From positions 1-59,705 of the forward strand of contig SVST01000017.1 in the NCBI GenBank assembly GCA_015064155.1: 59,705 nt of DNA, written 5' to 3'. This stretch comes from Oscillospiraceae bacterium. GTDB lineage: Bacteria > Bacillota > Clostridia > Oscillospirales > CAG-272. Below the pieces are notes generated by a model that was not told where the DNA came from, ran no database searches, and saw only the letters and a list, made by a program, of their open reading frames with translations. The position numbers and the translations under genes are program-made. This document shows, in pieces, positions 43,061-56,635 of the stretch. The first letter of the stretch is position 1, and the number at the start of each line of letters is the position of its first letter.

Positions 43061-45715
43061 TTACTGCAGCTTTTCCAGCGCCGCCTTGACACCCTCTAAG
43101 TTCTCGGTGTACTTGGCAAGCTTGGTGCGCTCGGCATCTACCACCGCTGCGGGAGCCTTTGCAACAAAGCTCTCGTTTGCCAGCTTTTTGTTGATGCGGT
43201 CGATCTCTGCCGTCAGCTTTGCCAGCTCGGCAGACAAGCGTGCACGCTCCTTTTCGGTGTCAACCAAATCGGAAAGCGGCAGATACAGGGTTGCCGAATC
43301 GGTGATGATCTGTACGGCGTTATCGGCACTGACCACGTCTGCGGCGAACGCTTCTTTGACCTCTACCTCGGAGGCGGAAGCCAGGCGAACGAAGAACGGG
43401 TGGGTCGATGCACCGAAGGACTCGGGATACTTGGTTGCAATGTAAACCTTTGCCTTGCGGGAGGGAACGACGTTCATTTCGTTGCGGCGCAAGCGAATTG
43501 CCTTGATGGCGGCAATCACGCGCGACAGCTCTTCGGATTCACGCGGGAAATTGAGGGAGGCGTCGGGGGCGGGATAGGATGCCATGACGATGCTTTCCGA
43601 ATCACCGTCGTGCGGCAGTGCTTGATAGATTTCCTCGGTGATGAAAGGCATGAAGGGATGCAGAAGCTTGAGAGTACCCGTCAGCACGTAGGAGAGGACG
43701 TTCTGCGCGATCAGGTTGCCGTCGGTATCCTTTTCGGACAGACGGCTCTTGGTAAGCTCAATGTACCAGTCGCAGAAAATATCCCAAACAAACTCGTAAA
43801 TGGCGGCAAGCGCAACACCAATCTCATAATGATCCAGCGCGCCCGTGACTGTTGCCACGGTTTTGTTGTATTCGGTCAAAATCCACTTATCCTCGGAGGA
43901 AAGGCGGTCGTTGCTCGGCAATTCAACCTTGTCGATGGTCAGATTCATGCGGACGAAGCGCGATGCATTCCACAGCTTGTTTGCAAAGTTGCGGGCTGCC
44001 TCCATCTTCTCGTCCGAGAAACGCATATCGTTTCCGGGGGAGTTACCCGTGGAGAGCGCAAAGCGGAGCGCGTCGGCACCGTATTTTTCGATGATCTCCA
44101 AGGGATCAATTCCGTTGCCCAGCGACTTGGACATTTTTCTGCCCTGCGCGTCGCGTACCAGACCGTGAATGAAAACGGTGTGGAACGGCTTTTCGCCCAT
44201 GTGCTCAAGCCCCGAGAAGATCATACGCGAAACCCAGAAAGTGATGATATCGTAGCCCGTGACCAGCACGCTCGTGGGATAATATTTTTTCAGATCCTCG
44301 GTGTTTTCGGGCCATCCCAGCGTGGAGAACGGCCAAAGAGCCGACGAGAACCAGGTGTCCAGCACGTCCTCGTCCTGACGGACCGCAGCACCGCACTTGG
44401 GACACGTGGTAATATCCTCCTTGGAAACGGTCATTTCTCCGCAAGCGTCGCAATAGAACGCGGGGATGCGGTGACCCCACCAAAGCTGACGCGAAATGCA
44501 CCAGTCGAGGATGTTGTTCATCCAGTTGAAGTAGTTTTTGGAGAAGCGTTCGGGAACGAAGCGGATCTCGCCGCTTTCCACCGCCTTGATGGCGGGCTCT
44601 GCCAAGGGCTTCATCTTGACGAACCACTGATCCGAGGTCATCGGCTCAACCGTGGTGCCGCAACGGTAGCAGACACCGACGTTATGATCGTGGGGAACGG
44701 TTTTAACCAGATAGCCGTCCGCCTCCAGATCGGCAACCAAAGCCTTGCGGCAGGCATAGCGATCCATTCCCTCGTATTTGCCCGCATTGGCATTCATGGT
44801 TGCGTCGTCGTTCATGACCTTGATCTGCTCAAGACCGTGACGCTGACCCACCTGGAAGTCGTTGGGGTCGTGTGCGGGGGTGATTTTCACACAGCCCGTA
44901 CCGAAGCCGATTTCTACGTAATCATCGGCAACGACGGGAATTTCTCTCTCAACGATGGGCAGAATCAGCGTTTTCCCGATGAGGTGCTTGGTAGCTTCAT
45001 CCTCGGGGTTGACTGCAACGGCGGTATCACCGAACATGGTTTCGGGACGCGTGGTAGCAATCTCCACGTAGCCGTCCTCGCCCTTGATGGGATACTTGAT
45101 ATGCCAGAAATGACCGGGCTGATCCTTATAATCAACCTCAGCATCGGAAAGAGCCGTCAAACAGCGGGGACACCAGTTGATAATGCGGTATCCGCGATAG
45201 ATCAGACCCTTGTCGTACAGATTGACAAAGACCTCGCGAACAGCGCGGGAGCAGCCCTCGTCGAAGGTGAAGCGTTGACGGGTCCAGTCGCAGGACGCGC
45301 CCAGCTTTTTGAGCTGACCCGTGATGCGTGCCTCGTATTTATCCTTCCATTGCCATACGCGCTCAAGGAATTTCTCTCTGCCGAGATCATAGCGGGAAAG
45401 TCCCTCTTCCTCGCGCAAACGCTCCTCTACCTTGATCTGTGTTGCGATACCTGCATGGTCGGTACCGGGAACCCAAACGGTATTGAAGCCCTGCATGCGC
45501 TTGTAGCGGACCAGGATGTCCTGCAGGGTTTCATCGAGCGCGTGACCCATGTGCAATTGACCCGTTACGTTGGGGGGCGGAATGACCACAGAGAAATGCT
45601 CGGCATTGTTGTTTTTGTCGGGCGTGAAATAGCCTTTTTCACACCATGTCTGATAAATTCGATCCTCAAACTCACCGGGGGCGTAGGTTTTCGGCAGCTC
45701 GTTGTATTGGTTCAT
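43061..45715 (-). CDS. valS: Valyl-tRNA synthetase
   Basis: Charges tRNA-Val and edits misactivated threonine. The 884 residues fit the bacterial enzyme. The class I HIGH-type motif is seen in [17 protein letters not shown] near residue 48, and the KMSKS loop is intact in [16 protein letters not shown] near 525. CP1 editing sequences [19 protein letters not shown] and zinc-type CDACGEM/CPKC pairs are present. A coiled-coil C-terminus ([20 protein letters not shown]) ends the chain. The ATG at 45715 has AGGAGG 6 nt upstream; a longer frame runs into the T-box leader and is not coding. Expression is controlled by that leader. Confidence 0.97.
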
Positions 45716-45751
45716 GTAAAACCTCCTAAAAATAAATACAATTTGTGCGGA

Positions 45752-46003
45752 ACAAAAAAGAAAAGCCTCCTTCGTCCCTTTTATCAGGACGTGGAAGCAC
45801 GCGGTACCACCTGATTTCCCCGAAAAAACTCCGAGGCTCTCTTGCTCCGTAACGTGGAGGACCCGTTGCAGGCTACTTACAAGGGGGACCCCCGGTTCAC
45901 CGACACCGCTTGGGAGCGACTTCTGCCGACCGTGCCGCGAACTCGCACCAACCGTTCGCTCTCTGTGCGCCGTGTCCCGCATACTACTCTCCGTCATTGC
46001 GTT
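45752..46003 (-). promoter_or_regulatory. T-box riboswitch leader of valS
   Basis: On the minus strand the canonical T-box GGTGGTACCGCG lies at 45800-45811. It is followed by a terminator formed by GCTTCC...CGTCC with GGGACG...GGAGGC and a CTTTTCTTTTTT tail ending near 45752. Upstream, the stem I distal signature AGAGAGCGAAC ... GGTTGGTGCGAG is visible. GAAGTC near 45918-45923 offers GTC (45918-45920), a valine codon, as the specifier. Uncharged tRNA-Val would pair with the specifier and T-box bulge, form the antiterminator and switch valS on. Confidence 0.92.
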
Positions 46004-46009
46004 TTGAAC

Positions 46010-51247: not shown

Positions 51248-51276
51248 TTGACAAAGTGCTCTTAAAATGGTATAAT
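51248..51276 (+). promoter_or_regulatory. Promoter of the TerB-N/ATPase/helicase operon
   Basis: TTGACA (51248-51253) and TATAAT (51271-51276) are perfect with a 17-nt spacer. The leader is short (about 30 nt). Such a promoter suggests steady expression, unless a repressor encoded elsewhere acts on it. Confidence 0.85.
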
Positions 51277-51312
51277 AATATAATACAAGAATTTGCAAAA
51301 GGGGGTGTGATC

Positions 51313-52977
51313 GTGGAACGAGATAAGCGGAAACGGCAAGACGAACTGGATCGCTTTTGGGAGATTGACGATTTGCTCCCGAAGCGTCGCGCACCGCACT
51401 ATCCCTCCGACACCGAGGCAACCGAAATCGAGCTGCCGCGGGTGACGAAAAAACCGAACGCGTCTGCAACTCCCACGCAAAAGGAACCGATCCCACCGCG
51501 GGAGCAGCCTCCGAAAACGCACTTTATTCCTCCGCACGGACCCGAGGAGGAGGCATTGCGCCCCCGACCGATGCTGGAGTATACCCCCGATAACGCGCTG
51601 ATTCGATGCGTTCGTATCTATCCGTGGAAGATCGATTACCGATACTACGAGGGCTTTTTGCGCGACGCTGTCCGTTTGTACGGGGTACGTGGCGAATCGT
51701 GTCAAAGAGTACCGTTCTTTTCCTACTCACCGCAGTATACGCAGATGAATCGCGCACAGCTGGAGTGGTATCTGTGGTGGCGTGAGCTTGCGCGCGGCGG
51801 GGACTATACCGATACCGATTACAGCTACGTGCTTTTGTACGTGTATGAGATCATCAATCTTTCGGGGGTCATGGATGCTGCCGAATCGCAGCGTCGCTTG
51901 TGCGAAATTTGGCTTCGCTACCGATCGATCTACCGACAGCTTGACAGCTATCTGCCGAACTGGATCTGTGATTACAGTCTGATTCATCGATTGCCGCCGC
52001 CGGACGAGTCGTTGGGAATCGTCTTGTCCGACGTGATGCCGCATGCCACGCTCAAGGAATTTTTCGTGCAATCGGGTGGAAAAAACGGCTATCTGACGGC
52101 ATTGTTGGCGTTTTGTTCAAACTATGATTACCGCAAAAGTAAGTTTTATACCAAGGAGAATGCCGCGCTGTTTGACCGCGTGATTCCCGATGCGGTGGAA
52201 CGGGTGACGCACCGATTGACGTGTGACGGCAAGCTGTTCGCAAATTCGGGAATGGACGACAGCAGTATGATGCGCGATGCTTATGCGGGCGCGCTTTGTG
52301 CGTATCGGAACAAGCGGCGCATTGAGGTTCAATACTGTTCCTTTTCGCGCTCGCACGAGCTGCGCTTTTTGATTACCGACGTGGTAAAATATACCGAAAA
52401 TAAGATTCGCGCGGTGCTTGGTGTGCGTTCCAGGCTTTCGGTTTATGCGCTTCCCACCGCGTTGCGCGAGCTGTTGGACGGCTTTTGCGAGGAAAGCTTG
52501 CCGAAACGCGCAACCACCTCCAAAAACACCGATACAGCACCTGCCGAATACGAGCGCTTGTACGATCTGCCGCGCACCGAGCTTTCGCTTTCTCATGCGG
52601 CGAGCATCGAGCGCGCCTCGTGGGAAACCACCGAGCGATTGGTGGAGGCATTCGAGGAGGACTCCGATTCGGTTGCAACCGAGGCGGAAGCACCTCCCAC
52701 ACCGATACCGGCGGCTTTTGTTCCGCAGGGCGATGCCGAATCATCCGACGAGTGGCAGAAATACCGTGACTATCTCTTGGCGGCTTTGTCCGATGACGTT
52801 GGCGCGCAACGCGAGGCGGCACGAAAAACGGGACTTCCCGAAGAGGTTTTGACAGACGAAATCAATACCCTGGCGGCAGACCTCTTAGGCGATATTTTAT
52901 TGGAAGAAAACGAAAACGGCTTTGCGGTGATCGAGGATTACCGCGACACGGTACAAGCCATTGCACAAAAATTGTAA
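51313..52977 (+). CDS. TerB-N / TerB-C domain protein
   Basis: A 554-residue protein. Residues 1-95 are a charged, Pro-rich, probably disordered tail. About 115-320 is the TerB-N domain, with the signature run SYSPQYTQMNRAQLEWYLWW, the DYTDTDYSYVLLYVYEIIN helix and a Pro-rich LPPPDE loop. The last part is TerB-C: SIERASWETTERLVEAFEE near 430 and LTDEINTLAADLLGDILLEE near the end. The central TerB metal-binding domain common between them is not obvious. In the literature these domains belong to tellurium-resistance-linked DNA-processing neighbourhoods (Anantharaman, Iyer and Aravind). The GTG at 51313 with GGGGG 7 nt upstream is chosen; GTG at 51307 is an alternative. It is the first gene of the operon, 13 nt before the ATPase. 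Confidence 0.85.
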   Translation: MERDKRKRQDELDRFWEIDDLLPKRRAPHYPSDTEATEIELPRVTKKPNASATPTQKEPIPPREQPPKTHFIPPHGPEEEALRPRPMLEYTPDNALIRCVRIYPWKIDYRYYEGFLRDAVRLYGVRGESCQRVPFFSYSPQYTQMNRAQLEWYLWWRELARGGDYTDTDYSYVLLYVYEIINLSGVMDAAESQRRLCEIWLRYRSIYRQLDSYLPNWICDYSLIHRLPPPDESLGIVLSDVMPHATLKEFFVQSGGKNGYLTALLAFCSNYDYRKSKFYTKENAALFDRVIPDAVERVTHRLTCDGKLFANSGMDDSSMMRDAYAGALCAYRNKRRIEVQYCSFSRSHELRFLITDVVKYTENKIRAVLGVRSRLSVYALPTALRELLDGFCEESLPKRATTSKNTDTAPAEYERLYDLPRTELSLSHAASIERASWETTERLVEAFEEDSDSVATEAEAPPTPIPAAFVPQGDAESSDEWQKYRDYLLAALSDDVGAQREAARKTGLPEEVLTDEINTLAADLLGDILLEENENGFAVIEDYRDTVQAIAQKL

Positions 52978-52990
52978 GAGAGGTTTTTTC

Positions 52991-54367
52991 ATGGAACAGA
53001 TACGGCAAAATGAGATACCAAAGGTGCCGAAGCGCATATTAACGTCCCTGCTTTCGTCGGTTTCGGCGGGGGTGGTTCCGCGTGCGGGTGCTCCGTATAT
53101 TGCCATCGGACGGCAGGACGAAATTGCCGCCTTGCTGTCCGACCTGGAGGCGGTCAACGAGGGTGGCGGATCGATGCGCTTTTTGATCGGACGCTACGGA
53201 AGCGGAAAAAGCTTTCTGATGCAGCTGATTCGCGGTTATGCGCTGGAGCGCGGTTTTTTGACCGCAGACGCTGATCTTTCGCCAGAAAGACGCTTGTACG
53301 GCACGGGTGGCAGCGGTGTTGCAACCTATCGGGAGCTGATGAAAAATTTAGCCTCCAAGGCATCCCCCGACGGCGGAGCTCTTCCGCGCCTTTTGGCTCG
53401 TTGGATCAACGATTTGCAAACGGCGGTGTTGGATACGGGGATTTCCGCAAAGGAGGAAGCCTTCTCGGATGCATTGAACCGTCGCGTGGCGGACACGCTG
53501 CGTGAAATGGAGTTTTTGGTGGGCGGTTTTGATTTTTCACGTGTGATCGTTGCCTATTATCGCGCCTACGTGGCGGGGGATGACGACCGAAAGAGCGCGT
53601 GCCTGCGTTGGTTGCGCGGCGAGTACGCGACCAAAACCGAGGCAAGGCAGGCTCTTGGTTTTTCGGTTTCGGTGATTATCGACGACGACAACTGGTATGA
53701 TTTTTTAAAGCTGTGGGCGGCACTTTCGCGCACGATGGGCTATCGGGGGCTGGTGGTATTCGTGGATGAATGCGTCAATCTGTATAAGATTTCGCACCGT
53801 GTCAGCCGCGAAAACAACTACGAAAAGATTCTGTCGATGTTCAACGATACCCTGCAGGGAAGAGCCCCGGGACTTGCGTTGGTCTTTGGCGGCACGCCGC
53901 AGTTTTTGGAGGACACGCGCAGAGGCTTGTTTTCCTACGAGGCACTCCGAAGCCGCCTCTGTGACAGCCGCTTTGCCTTGGAGGGCTTTAAAAATCTGAT
54001 CGGTCCCGTGATTCGTCTGCGCCGCTTGTCGGACGACGAGCTGTTTGCCTTGATCAGTCGCGTCACCAAGCTGTACGCGCAAAATTACGGGCAGCAGCCG
54101 CGCATCACCGAGGAACAGATGGTCGAATTTTTGCGGATTTGCCTGGGGCGCGCGGGTGCGGACAGTATGATTACACCGCGTGAAATGCTGCGCGATTATA
54201 TGACGGTTCTCAATATTCTGATGCAAAATCCCGAGGCAAGCTTTGAAGAGGTCGTGGGAAGCGCGGTCACGCTCAAAACCGAACAAGAGCTTTTGGAAGA
54301 GCGCGAGGCGGCAGAGAAGCCGACGGACGACACACACCGTTTTACGATAGATGAGATTGAATTTTAA
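52991..54367 (+). CDS. BrxC/BrxD-like P-loop ATPase
   Basis: A 458-residue ATPase of the family that includes BREX proteins BrxD/BrxC (the former DUF2791 P-loop family). Walker A is GRYGSGKS (67-74) and Walker B GLVVFVDE (253-260). FGGTPQFLEDTRRGLFSYEA (299-318) is the conserved downstream block, followed by an arginine-rich helical part ending near ITPREMLRDYMTVLN. An N-terminal VVPRAGAPYIAIGRQDEI segment is also family-typical. It probably remodels DNA or protein partners using ATP, together with the helicase that starts 2 nt after it. AGAGGT precedes the ATG at 52991. Compared with 1200-residue BrxC it is the short BrxD-like form. Confidence 0.85.
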   Translation: MEQIRQNEIPKVPKRILTSLLSSVSAGVVPRAGAPYIAIGRQDEIAALLSDLEAVNEGGGSMRFLIGRYGSGKSFLMQLIRGYALERGFLTADADLSPERRLYGTGGSGVATYRELMKNLASKASPDGGALPRLLARWINDLQTAVLDTGISAKEEAFSDALNRRVADTLREMEFLVGGFDFSRVIVAYYRAYVAGDDDRKSACLRWLRGEYATKTEARQALGFSVSVIIDDDNWYDFLKLWAALSRTMGYRGLVVFVDECVNLYKISHRVSRENNYEKILSMFNDTLQGRAPGLALVFGGTPQFLEDTRRGLFSYEALRSRLCDSRFALEGFKNLIGPVIRLRRLSDDELFALISRVTKLYAQNYGQQPRITEEQMVEFLRICLGRAGADSMITPREMLRDYMTVLNILMQNPEASFEEVVGSAVTLKTEQELLEEREAAEKPTDDTHRFTIDEIEF

Positions 54368-54369
54368 AA

Positions 54370-56595
54370 ATGAGTGAGATTTTTGAACGATTTCCGCGTT
54401 TTATACAGGAGTATATTTACGCGCACAACTGGGAGAGCCTGCGAGAGGTGCAGGTTGCGGCGGCAAAAACGATTTTTGAGAGTGACCGCAATCTGCTCCT
54501 GACCTCGTCCACGGCAAGCGGTAAGACCGAAGCCGCATTCTTTCCCATTCTGTCCGAGCTGTGCGAGGATCCGCCCGCGAGCGTTGGCGTGCTGTATATT
54601 GCGCCCTTGAAGAGTCTGATCAACGACCAATTTTACCGCATCGAGGAGCTGCTTTCGGAAAGCGGGATTCCCGTGACCCATTGGCATGGGGACGTGGCAC
54701 AGTCGCACAAGAAAAAGCTGCTTGAAAAGCCGCGCGGAATCTTGCAGGTGACCCCCGAATCACTGGAATCGATGCTGATCAACCGTTCCAACGATCTGGT
54801 AAGGCTGTTTGGAGATCTGCGTTTTATCGTCATTGACGAGATCCATACCCTTACGGGAAGTGATCGCGGCAATCAGATCCTTTGTCAGCTTGCGCGGATC
54901 GGTTCCTTGATCGGCTATCATCCGCGGCGCGTGGGACTATCGGCAACCATTGGCGATTTGCAAACCGCCGCCGATTGGCTGGGGGCGGGAAGCGGAAGAG
55001 CCACCGATGCTCCCGTGTCCGATCCCGGGAAAATTCGCTGGCGGCTGGGAATGGAGCATTTTTATATCGGAAATGCCAAGACCGAGCAGGCAATTGAGCC
55101 GCGTGAGGATACGTCGGCACCCGCACCGCCCACCGCATACGACGCAGGGTACTCCTATATGTACGATTGCGTGCGCGACCGTAAGTCGCTGGTCTTTTCC
55201 AATTCGCGCGAGGAAACCGAATATCTGTGCGCAACGCTTCGGCAGATTGCAAAGCTGCGTGGGGACAGTGACGTATTTTTGATTCATCACGGCAATCTTT
55301 CGGCATCGATTCGCGAGGAAGCCGAGCTGAAAATGAAGGATGAGGACGTGATGGCGGTCACCTGCGCCACCGTTACCATGGAGCTTGGCATTGATATCGG
55401 ACGCTTGGAGCGCGTTCTGCAGAATCAGTCGCCCAACTCGGTCACGGGCTTTTTGCAACGGCTGGGACGCTCGGGAAGACGCGGTCAGCCGCCCGAGATG
55501 ATGATGGTTTTCCGTGAAGAGGACCCGCTTCCCAACACCCCGCTGCCGCAGCTGATGCCGTGGGAGCTACTCAAGGCGATTGCAATCGTCCAGCTTTATA
55601 TCGAGGAACGCTTCATCGAGCCTCCAAATTTGCGAAAATTGCCGTACAGTCTTCTGTTTCACCAAACGTTGAGCGTTCTGGCATCGTCAGGAGAATTAAG
55701 CGCACGGCGGCTTGCCGATCGCGTGCTGTCCCTTTCGCCGTTTCTGCACGTTCCGAAAGAGGATTACAAGGTGTTGATTCTTTCGATGCTCAACAACGAT
55801 TTTTTGGAAATGACCGAGGAAAAAACCTTGATCGTAGGCTTGGCAGGCGAGAGATTGCTCCGAAGCTTCAAGTTTTACGCGGTGTTTAAGGATTCCGAGG
55901 ACTACACCGTACGGTGCGGCTCGGATGAGATCGGAACCATTACCACGCCGCCGCCCGTTGGCGACCGTTTTGCTCTGGCAGGCAGAGTGTGGGAGGTCGA
56001 GGAGCTGGATATTGCGCACCGATTGATCTACGTCAAAAGCGTGGAGGGCAAGATGGAGGTGTCCTGGCCGGGTGACTACGGCGAGGTGCATACGCGCATT
56101 TTAGAGCGCATGCGGCAGGTGCTCTCCGAGGACACCGTCTACCCGTATCTCAAGCCCAACGCACAAAAACGCCTGGAGGTGGCACGCCACGTGGCGCGAA
56201 ACACGGGGATGCTGTCGCATTCCTTGGTGCATCTCGGCGGATACTCGTGGTGTTTGTTCCCGTGGCTTGGGACGCGTGCCTTCCGTGCCATGCGCAAGAT
56301 CATTGCATCGAAATCGCAGTCCTTTGGCATTACGGGTGTCGAATACGAGGGGTGCTACTATATTACCTTTAAAATGTCGCGCGGTAACGATTATGAGCTG
56401 ATTTCGACGCTTGCCGAGGAAGCGCGTACCGACCGAATTTCCGCACACGCCTTGGTGAGTGGCGGAGAGGTCCCCGTATTTGAAAAATACGACGACTACG
56501 TTCCCGCCGATCTTTTGCGCCATGCTTATGCGGTTGATAAAATCGACGCAGAGAGCGCAAAACGGAGGATTTTGGAGATCGAAGAGGAATACTGA
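54370..56595 (+). CDS. Lhr/BrxHI-like DEAD/DEAH-box helicase
   Basis: A 741-residue superfamily 2 helicase. The Q-like REVQVAAAK stretch precedes motif I STASGKT (47-53). Motif Ia is APLKSL, motif II DEIH (156-159), motif III SAT (191-193), with IHHGNLS and TVTMELGIDIG in the second RecA domain and motif VI QRLGRSGRRG (363-372). Beyond 420 a winged-helix and Lhr-type C-terminal region follow, and CLFPWLGTRA near 620 is a recognisable Lhr-like feature. BrxHI of type 2 BREX belongs to this group. Only 2 nt separate it from the ATPase gene and no ribosome site is seen, so it is translated by coupling. It likely unwinds or translocates on DNA as the motor of this three-gene system. Confidence 0.9.
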   Translation: MSEIFERFPRFIQEYIYAHNWESLREVQVAAAKTIFESDRNLLLTSSTASGKTEAAFFPILSELCEDPPASVGVLYIAPLKSLINDQFYRIEELLSESGIPVTHWHGDVAQSHKKKLLEKPRGILQVTPESLESMLINRSNDLVRLFGDLRFIVIDEIHTLTGSDRGNQILCQLARIGSLIGYHPRRVGLSATIGDLQTAADWLGAGSGRATDAPVSDPGKIRWRLGMEHFYIGNAKTEQAIEPREDTSAPAPPTAYDAGYSYMYDCVRDRKSLVFSNSREETEYLCATLRQIAKLRGDSDVFLIHHGNLSASIREEAELKMKDEDVMAVTCATVTMELGIDIGRLERVLQNQSPNSVTGFLQRLGRSGRRGQPPEMMMVFREEDPLPNTPLPQLMPWELLKAIAIVQLYIEERFIEPPNLRKLPYSLLFHQTLSVLASSGELSARRLADRVLSLSPFLHVPKEDYKVLILSMLNNDFLEMTEEKTLIVGLAGERLLRSFKFYAVFKDSEDYTVRCGSDEIGTITTPPPVGDRFALAGRVWEVEELDIAHRLIYVKSVEGKMEVSWPGDYGEVHTRILERMRQVLSEDTVYPYLKPNAQKRLEVARHVARNTGMLSHSLVHLGGYSWCLFPWLGTRAFRAMRKIIASKSQSFGITGVEYEGCYYITFKMSRGNDYELISTLAEEARTDRISAHALVSGGEVPVFEKYDDYVPADLLRHAYAVDKIDAESAKRRILEIEEEY

Positions 56596-56602
56596 AATGG
56601 AT

Positions 56603-56635
56603 AAAAGCACGCGCCGTTTATCGGTGCGTGCTTTT
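56603..56635. terminator. Terminator of the helicase operon
   Basis: AAAAGCACGC (56603-56612) pairs with GCGTGCTTTT (56626-56635), plus inner GCC/GGT pairs. It also sits 9 nt past the end of the convergent small membrane gene. Confidence 0.8.

Follow-up and report, generated by a model that had tools for sequence, protein, structure and literature searches.

The contig SVST01000017.1 from the Oscillospiraceae bacterium assembly GCA_015064155.1 (59,705 nucleotides (nt), the whole of which is referred to as the window) carries three intact genes on the + strand, located between a promoter and a terminator (Table 1), whose products can be assigned with high confidence, on the basis of their sequences, to a complete Shango anti-phage system (SngA-SngB-SngC). 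The underlying open reading frames (ORFs) span 51256-52977, 52961-54367 and 54370-56595; with the putative starts that we chose, GTG at 51313 for SngA and ATG at 52991 for SngB, the genes are separated by 13 nt (SngA-SngB) and 2 nt (SngB-SngC). The original prediction, made from the letters of this stretch, had described the three genes with these gaps, the consensus promoter, the terminator and the motifs GRYGSGKS, FVDE, DEIH and QRLGRSGRRG, and all were confirmed in the sequence, the motifs in the translations; the start it had given for the feature, 51248, is that of the promoter and not of the first gene.

Table 1 Features of the Shango operon in the window
Feature	Position	Strand	Basis
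Putative sigma-70-type promoter TTGACA-17-TATAAT, TG before second hexamer	51248..51276	+	12/12 consensus match
Shine-Dalgarno-like AGGGGG	51300..51305	+	sequence
SngA, 554 amino acids (aa): TerB_N, central alpha/beta region (~residues 245-400), variable linker, TerB_C with predicted winged-helix C-terminus	51313..52977 (GTG start)	+	
SngB, 458 aa, BrxC/BrxD-type P-loop ATPase	52991..54367 (ATG start)	+	PADLOC SngB and Pfam BrxC_BrxD
SngC, 741 aa, superfamily 2 (SF2) helicase, Lhr-core-like architecture	54370..56595 (ATG start)	+	
Putative intrinsic terminator, 14-pair stem and T-rich tail	56603..56635	+	terminator scan

PADLOC, which the original prediction had named as a check for a known class, gave Shango models as best match for all three proteins (SngA 1.7e-53, SngB 9.3e-169, SngC 7e-245). 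SngB scored 560 bits against the Shango model compared to 177 bits against BrxD (2e-52), SngC 813 bits compared to 402 bits against BrxHI; BrxD and BrxHI ranked second. The Pfam matches were TerB_N (70.6 bits), TerB_C (26.6 bits; cut-off 26.3), BrxC_BrxD (532.6 bits, 8.6e-160) and DEAD (98.3 bits), and among aligned SngA proteins TerB_N was found in 51/51 and TerB_C in 49/51 at 0.01. The same A-B-C order in a compact operon is present in triads on a Paenibacillus and an Aeromonas plasmid, whose proteins also score highest as SngA, SngB and SngC; it is these triads, together with the top PADLOC ranks, which lead to the assignment as Shango. Over ~730 residues, SngC of the window has 45% identity with the Paenibacillus protein and 32% with that of Aeromonas. 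For SngA of the window, the identity with the Paenibacillus protein is 31% over 296 residues, and no significant BLASTP match was obtained with Aeromonas SngA. The gene right behind the Paenibacillus triad (L240:8546-9931) has a GGDEF_GdpP-like match just below the Pfam cut-off and is a possible accessory.

The predicted self-contained three-gene system of anti-phage type, composed of a TerB_N/TerB_C protein, a BrxD-like ATPase and a BrxHI/Lhr-like helicase, is in agreement with Pfam and PADLOC, but the system is not a new candidate, since it is already named in PADLOC and was tested in phage assays. A name tied to another function had been given as a ground for rejection; a name was found, but its function is the predicted one. 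According to one report, Shango has anti-phage activity in P. aeruginosa and E. coli and reduces plating 10-100-fold for many, though not all, of the Pseudomonas phages examined (PMC10250203); its mechanism is given as unknown in a 2026 review (PMC12926258). By homology to the published members, an anti-phage role of the window operon is likely. No paper tying TerB-N/TerB-C to a helicase was found in our literature search.

The loose promoter scan of the window was at chance overall (5 sites vs 5.1 expected), but the exact sequence TTGACA-N17-TATAAT occurs nine times (1634, 1734, 4635, 16636, 23678, 29200, 36589, 38280 and 51248) compared to none in 100 shuffles. Therefore, consensus promoters are normal here, the promoters of this organism seem to be close to consensus, and the operon promoter is an ordinary strong one. 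It is conserved: a site matching at least 11 of 12 positions was present near the SngA start in 67 of the 71 related loci with enough sequence, compared to 1 of 355 letter-shuffled controls. Since the terminator scan was also at chance in the window (8 found vs 8.8 expected), the call of the operon terminator rests on its stem length and place.

The distribution of the system was determined in the gut Clostridia family to which the window genome belongs (295 genomes, 71 genera). SngB was found in 23 of 35 genomes of the genus and in 204 of 295 of the family, covering 55 of 71 genera; among family genomes with a completeness of at least 90%, 110 of 151 were positive. SngC (at 1e-60) was present in 202/295 and SngA (at 1e-8) in 201/295 genomes. 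Co-occurrence of the triad across genomes, which had been proposed as a further check, was apparent when the three lists were compared by hand: 190 of the 295 genomes have all three genes, 213 at least one and 82 none. SngB gave a single match in 199 of the 204 genomes, and all three genes are nearly always present in one copy. Outside the family the gene is less frequent: an order-wide draw gave 56/245 genomes, ten of them members of the gut Clostridia family and two very weak, and a class-wide draw 46/391, with 26 genomes above 400 bits (hand count). The named relatives (best 80 of 193) are metagenome-assembled Clostridia, and about 50 of the 80 records mention a ruminant host in their title (hand count); Shango is also named among the systems in rumen genomes (PMC13356809). 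A prevalence like this is by itself not special, because the comparison family N6_Mtase exceeded its cut-off in 61 of 98 family genomes; the number of matches varied, and many of them were weak. N6_Mtase is a broad methyltransferase family, and its count cannot tell restriction systems from other methylases. As to raw assembly size, the 12 SngB-negative genus members have 1.1-1.8 Mb and 18 of the 23 positive ones at least 2.0 Mb.

Next to co-occurrence, the linkage of the genes is informative. Spacing between SngB and SngC was analysed in 118 genomes and amounted to 600 nt or less in 68 and 0.6-4 kb in 12; the genes were unlinked in 16 (15 on other contigs with more than 6 kb of flank and one more than 100 kb apart) and ambiguous in 22, where they lie on different contigs with a contig end not excluded by that rule. 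This set was taken from the better-scoring matches, with which 150 of the 204 SngB and 152 of the 202 SngC genomes entered, 118 of them in both; one second SngC match of G085 was left out, and the SngC places for G048, G060 and G120 came from a separate search. Of 20 family loci, eight had no SngC near SngAB, the contig of L084 stopping 1.8 kb behind SngB; SngC is located elsewhere in seven of the eight genomes and is missing at 1e-60 from the other one (G072). Likewise, the sole SngA of G051 lies on another contig, with none in 9.4 kb of sequence upstream of SngB. SngC was also missing from all five genus members without SngB that were tested. Thus, the three genes are kept together while unlinked, as selection on a joint function predicts, and their joint keeping or loss despite frequent unlinking is natural evidence for one functional unit. 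The genes between SngB and SngC look metabolic from their sequence starts, e.g. EutH-like and PHP-domain proteins; a Pfam tally, pooled across loci, gave EutH four times and PHP twice among 150 flanking or interposed genes (150 of 274; 40 of the 80 named loci were covered, namely L094-L134 except L107, with genes predicted by a simple in-house caller).

These copies look like a vertically inherited, single-copy chromosomal set that is not traded between strains. Trees were calculated for the 38 genomes having both SngB (53 genomes) and RpoB (40), the SngC tree comprising 37 since G072 has no SngC; of the 15 SngB genomes outside the trees, ten were not searched for RpoB, three (G006, G009 and G017) gave no RpoB match and two (G025 and G064) gave RpoB only as fragments. 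Patristic distances correlated with those of RpoB with 0.76 for SngB and 0.80 for SngC, values not reached in any of 500 permutations, and with 0.82 and 0.875, respectively, after removal of three genomes with a divergent SngB type. In both the SngB and the RpoB tree, 19 genus members and five relatives formed one clade, with a Shimodaira-Hasegawa-like approximate likelihood ratio test (SH-aLRT) value of 99 each, and the window copy clustered with G002, G014 and G022 in both trees. Two observations weigh against strict vertical descent: exact splits shared with RpoB were few (4/35 for SngB, 12/34 for SngC), in part due to low resolution, and the genus by itself does not come out as a clade in the SngB tree. 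When 19 positive genus members were placed in an RpoB tree with 7 negative ones and an outgroup of 7 positive rows, four changes sufficed to explain the negatives; they are best read as four losses, and the genus fits ancestral presence with losses, a missed gene being possible in the negatives G003, G010 and G033, which are only 71-84% complete. The divergent SngB copies (~47% identity to the window protein) of L074, L075 and L076 (G170, G042 and G040; three genera) form a clade of their own that does not fit RpoB and were likely transferred or replaced. SngA diverges fast, with 29-60% identity to the window protein compared to 67-86% for SngC.

The chromosomal surroundings point in the same direction. 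In the window and in 7 of the 80 named relatives (best 80 of 193), nrdR has the same orientation as SngC and is located 0.5-1.1 kb downstream of it; among the 80, of which only 57 have 3 kb of sequence behind SngC, it lies within ~3 kb of the triad in 13. The seven are less similar relatives (SngB 71-79% identical), and the nrdR vicinity looks like an old chromosomal neighbourhood. In a literature search of limited extent, and hence as weak evidence of absence, no statement was found that Shango is vertically inherited or near-core; as far as the literature examined goes, the inheritance pattern in the gut Clostridia family is the new part, while the triad itself is already known.

A defence island around the triad was considered and rejected: the 150 flanking or interposed genes gave 11 gene-family matches in 7 families with PADLOC (raw count at 1e-15), namely PD-T4-2_B (4), mad2 (2) and dGTPase, RT_UG29, PDC-S07, RTasDnaG-like and mad3 (one each). 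Some defence-type genes do therefore occur near the triad, but the sampled flanks do not look like a defence island, and the 25 of 111 flank Pfam families listed include NrdR, EutH, riboflavin kinase, DNA polymerase III delta and other housekeeping functions. In a metagenome study, restriction genes co-locate with Shango outside islands (PMC10924106). According to the original prediction, universal conservation in the clade next to housekeeping genes and without a link to defence would have spoken against a defence system; the presence in 204/295 genomes and the few defence genes in the flanks go in this direction, but the triad is not universal. A single conserved insertion site in the genus was also rejected, since the flanks differ between most members; pairs sharing flanks do exist (L057 with L058, L070 with L073).

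Elsewhere, SngB homologues were found on 692 plasmid records (449 from Klebsiella and 144 from Salmonella), of which 542 are predicted to be conjugative; the count refers to SngB homologues, and full triads were established for the Paenibacillus and Aeromonas examples. The Klebsiella plasmid rows listed score nearly alike, which suggests one widespread plasmid type. A peptide-pattern scan of viral contigs revealed no confirmed relative, and no relative was found in phage records.

Family identity, gene order, promoter, vertical signal, three-gene co-retention and the Lhr-like fold of the SngC model were computed directly. The explanation that we favour, and regard as moderately probable, is a complete Shango system, vertically inherited as a single-copy chromosomal set, in which SngB loads SngC with SngA as adaptor and phage replication is blocked. 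For the loading, the substrate, the role of SngA, the replication block and the activity of the window copy we infer the following. SngB, an ATPase of the ORC/Cdc6-type AAA+ class, would most likely load, gate or license SngC; SngC would be an SF2 DNA translocase of the Lhr-core type that is put on foreign or abnormal DNA, e.g. phage replication intermediates; and SngA, with its TerB_N/TerB_C domains and winged-helix-like end, would most likely be the adaptor, recognising the substrate or forming a bridge to it. By stripping or remodelling the DNA, the translocase would block phage replication, and, as no nuclease is evident in the triad, any destruction of DNA would need a host nuclease.

Given the inheritance pattern, a guard that is domesticated or permanently kept has to be taken seriously as a rival. 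Lhr and MrfA helicases presumably act on the cell's own stalled or damaged DNA, and the predicted structure of SngC matches the fold of both. A domesticated genome-maintenance module, acting mainly on stalled or damaged DNA of the cell itself with phage defence being secondary or lost, would be in line with this match, with the high prevalence in nearly always one copy, the vertical signal, the co-retention of genes unlinked in at least 16 of 118 genomes, the conserved near-consensus promoter and the few defence genes in the sampled flanks. But the triad is dispensable, being absent from 82 of 295 genomes, with four changes among the seven genus negatives tested that were read as losses; SngA diverges fast, as expected for a part in conflict; SngB homologues occur on plasmids; and phage defence by Shango is published. 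We therefore consider this module rather unlikely. A wider version, in which Shango of the gut Clostridia family is a domesticated near-core DNA-surveillance machine, its ORC-like loader, Lhr-type translocase and TerB adaptor being kept by selection as one unit even where their genes lie scattered, i.e. a stable innate guard with a likely function in maintaining the genome of the cell itself, with the mobile cassettes as offshoots or relatives, is possible but doubtful.

Quite improbable is that the window genome recently acquired an ordinary mobile Shango cassette. The many plasmid-borne SngB homologues elsewhere, the different flanks of most genus members and the three genera with a foreign-looking SngB type would be expected from such a cassette, but SngB and SngC distances follow RpoB, the window copy has the same nearest neighbours in both trees, the nrdR neighbourhood is common to less similar relatives, and relatives were found neither in viral contigs nor in phage records. 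A reduced or orphan type 2 bacteriophage exclusion (BREX) system, i.e. a BrxD-BrxHI dyad with TerB-N as new partner, to which the Pfam BrxC_BrxD match and the 402 bits for BrxHI would fit, is very improbable and was rejected, since the Shango models score 2-3 times higher, SngB reached only 173.9 bits with the NCBIfam BrxD equivalog (cut-off 350), none of the 38 other predicted genes of the window matched a BREX or other defence part in PADLOC at 1e-15, and PglZ was not found in the host genome assembly (86% complete) and, among 98 family genomes, exceeded the cut-off in only four (six at E 0.001).

The proposed replacement of missing BREX parts by TerB-N is thus disfavoured by the SngB and SngC scores, but the reported absence of a PglX/BrxX methylase and of PglZ from the window was borne out: in the same PADLOC search, confined to the window, there was no PglX, BrxC or PglW. 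TerD-family proteins and TerC were not among the 25 of 57 Pfam families listed for these 38 genes, and neither PADLOC nor these families gave a nuclease or terD elsewhere in the window. Sequence searches against solved structures gave no match for SngA (single or profile) or SngB, nor did Foldseek with the SngA model at 0.001. Among other features of the window, a T-box leader (45782-46006, - strand; Rfam, 121.6 bits) overlaps the 5' end of the ORF 43061-45997 (- strand), whose true start therefore lies further in; this ORF may encode the class I tRNA synthetase that appears among the Pfam families of the window genes.

The unexpected inheritance pattern hints at a steadier job of Shango in guarding DNA, and the family offers a large number of diverged sequence sets, inherited vertically, with which protein-protein contacts could be mapped. 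If domestication is true, it becomes possible to test within a single lineage where phage defence ends and DNA repair begins.

In comparison with known systems, the window operon shares with the BrxD-BrxHI dyad of BREX type 2 a homologous ATPase and helicase as a linked pair and likely the logic of loader and translocase, but it differs in its TerB_N/TerB_C partner, in the lack of BREX matches in PADLOC among the 38 other genes of the window and in an SngB below the BrxD equivalog cut-off. With Lhr and MrfA (YprA) the predicted fold of SngC agrees, whereas its scores are far below the cut-offs of PRK13767 (186 bits, cut-off 849) and PRK09751 (100 bits, cut-off 1496), which we take to be Lhr-type models, and SngC is accompanied by SngB in 194 of 202 genomes of the gut Clostridia family. 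Shango matches in all three proteins, the order of the genes, the compact operon and the best PADLOC match of each protein. Unlike the 789 aa protein of Aeromonas, SngA of the window is short (554 aa), that of Paenibacillus having 573 aa; the sampled flanks in the gut Clostridia family are not a defence island, and the copies of this family are vertical in signal, nearly always single-copy and unlinked in at least 16 of 118 genomes.

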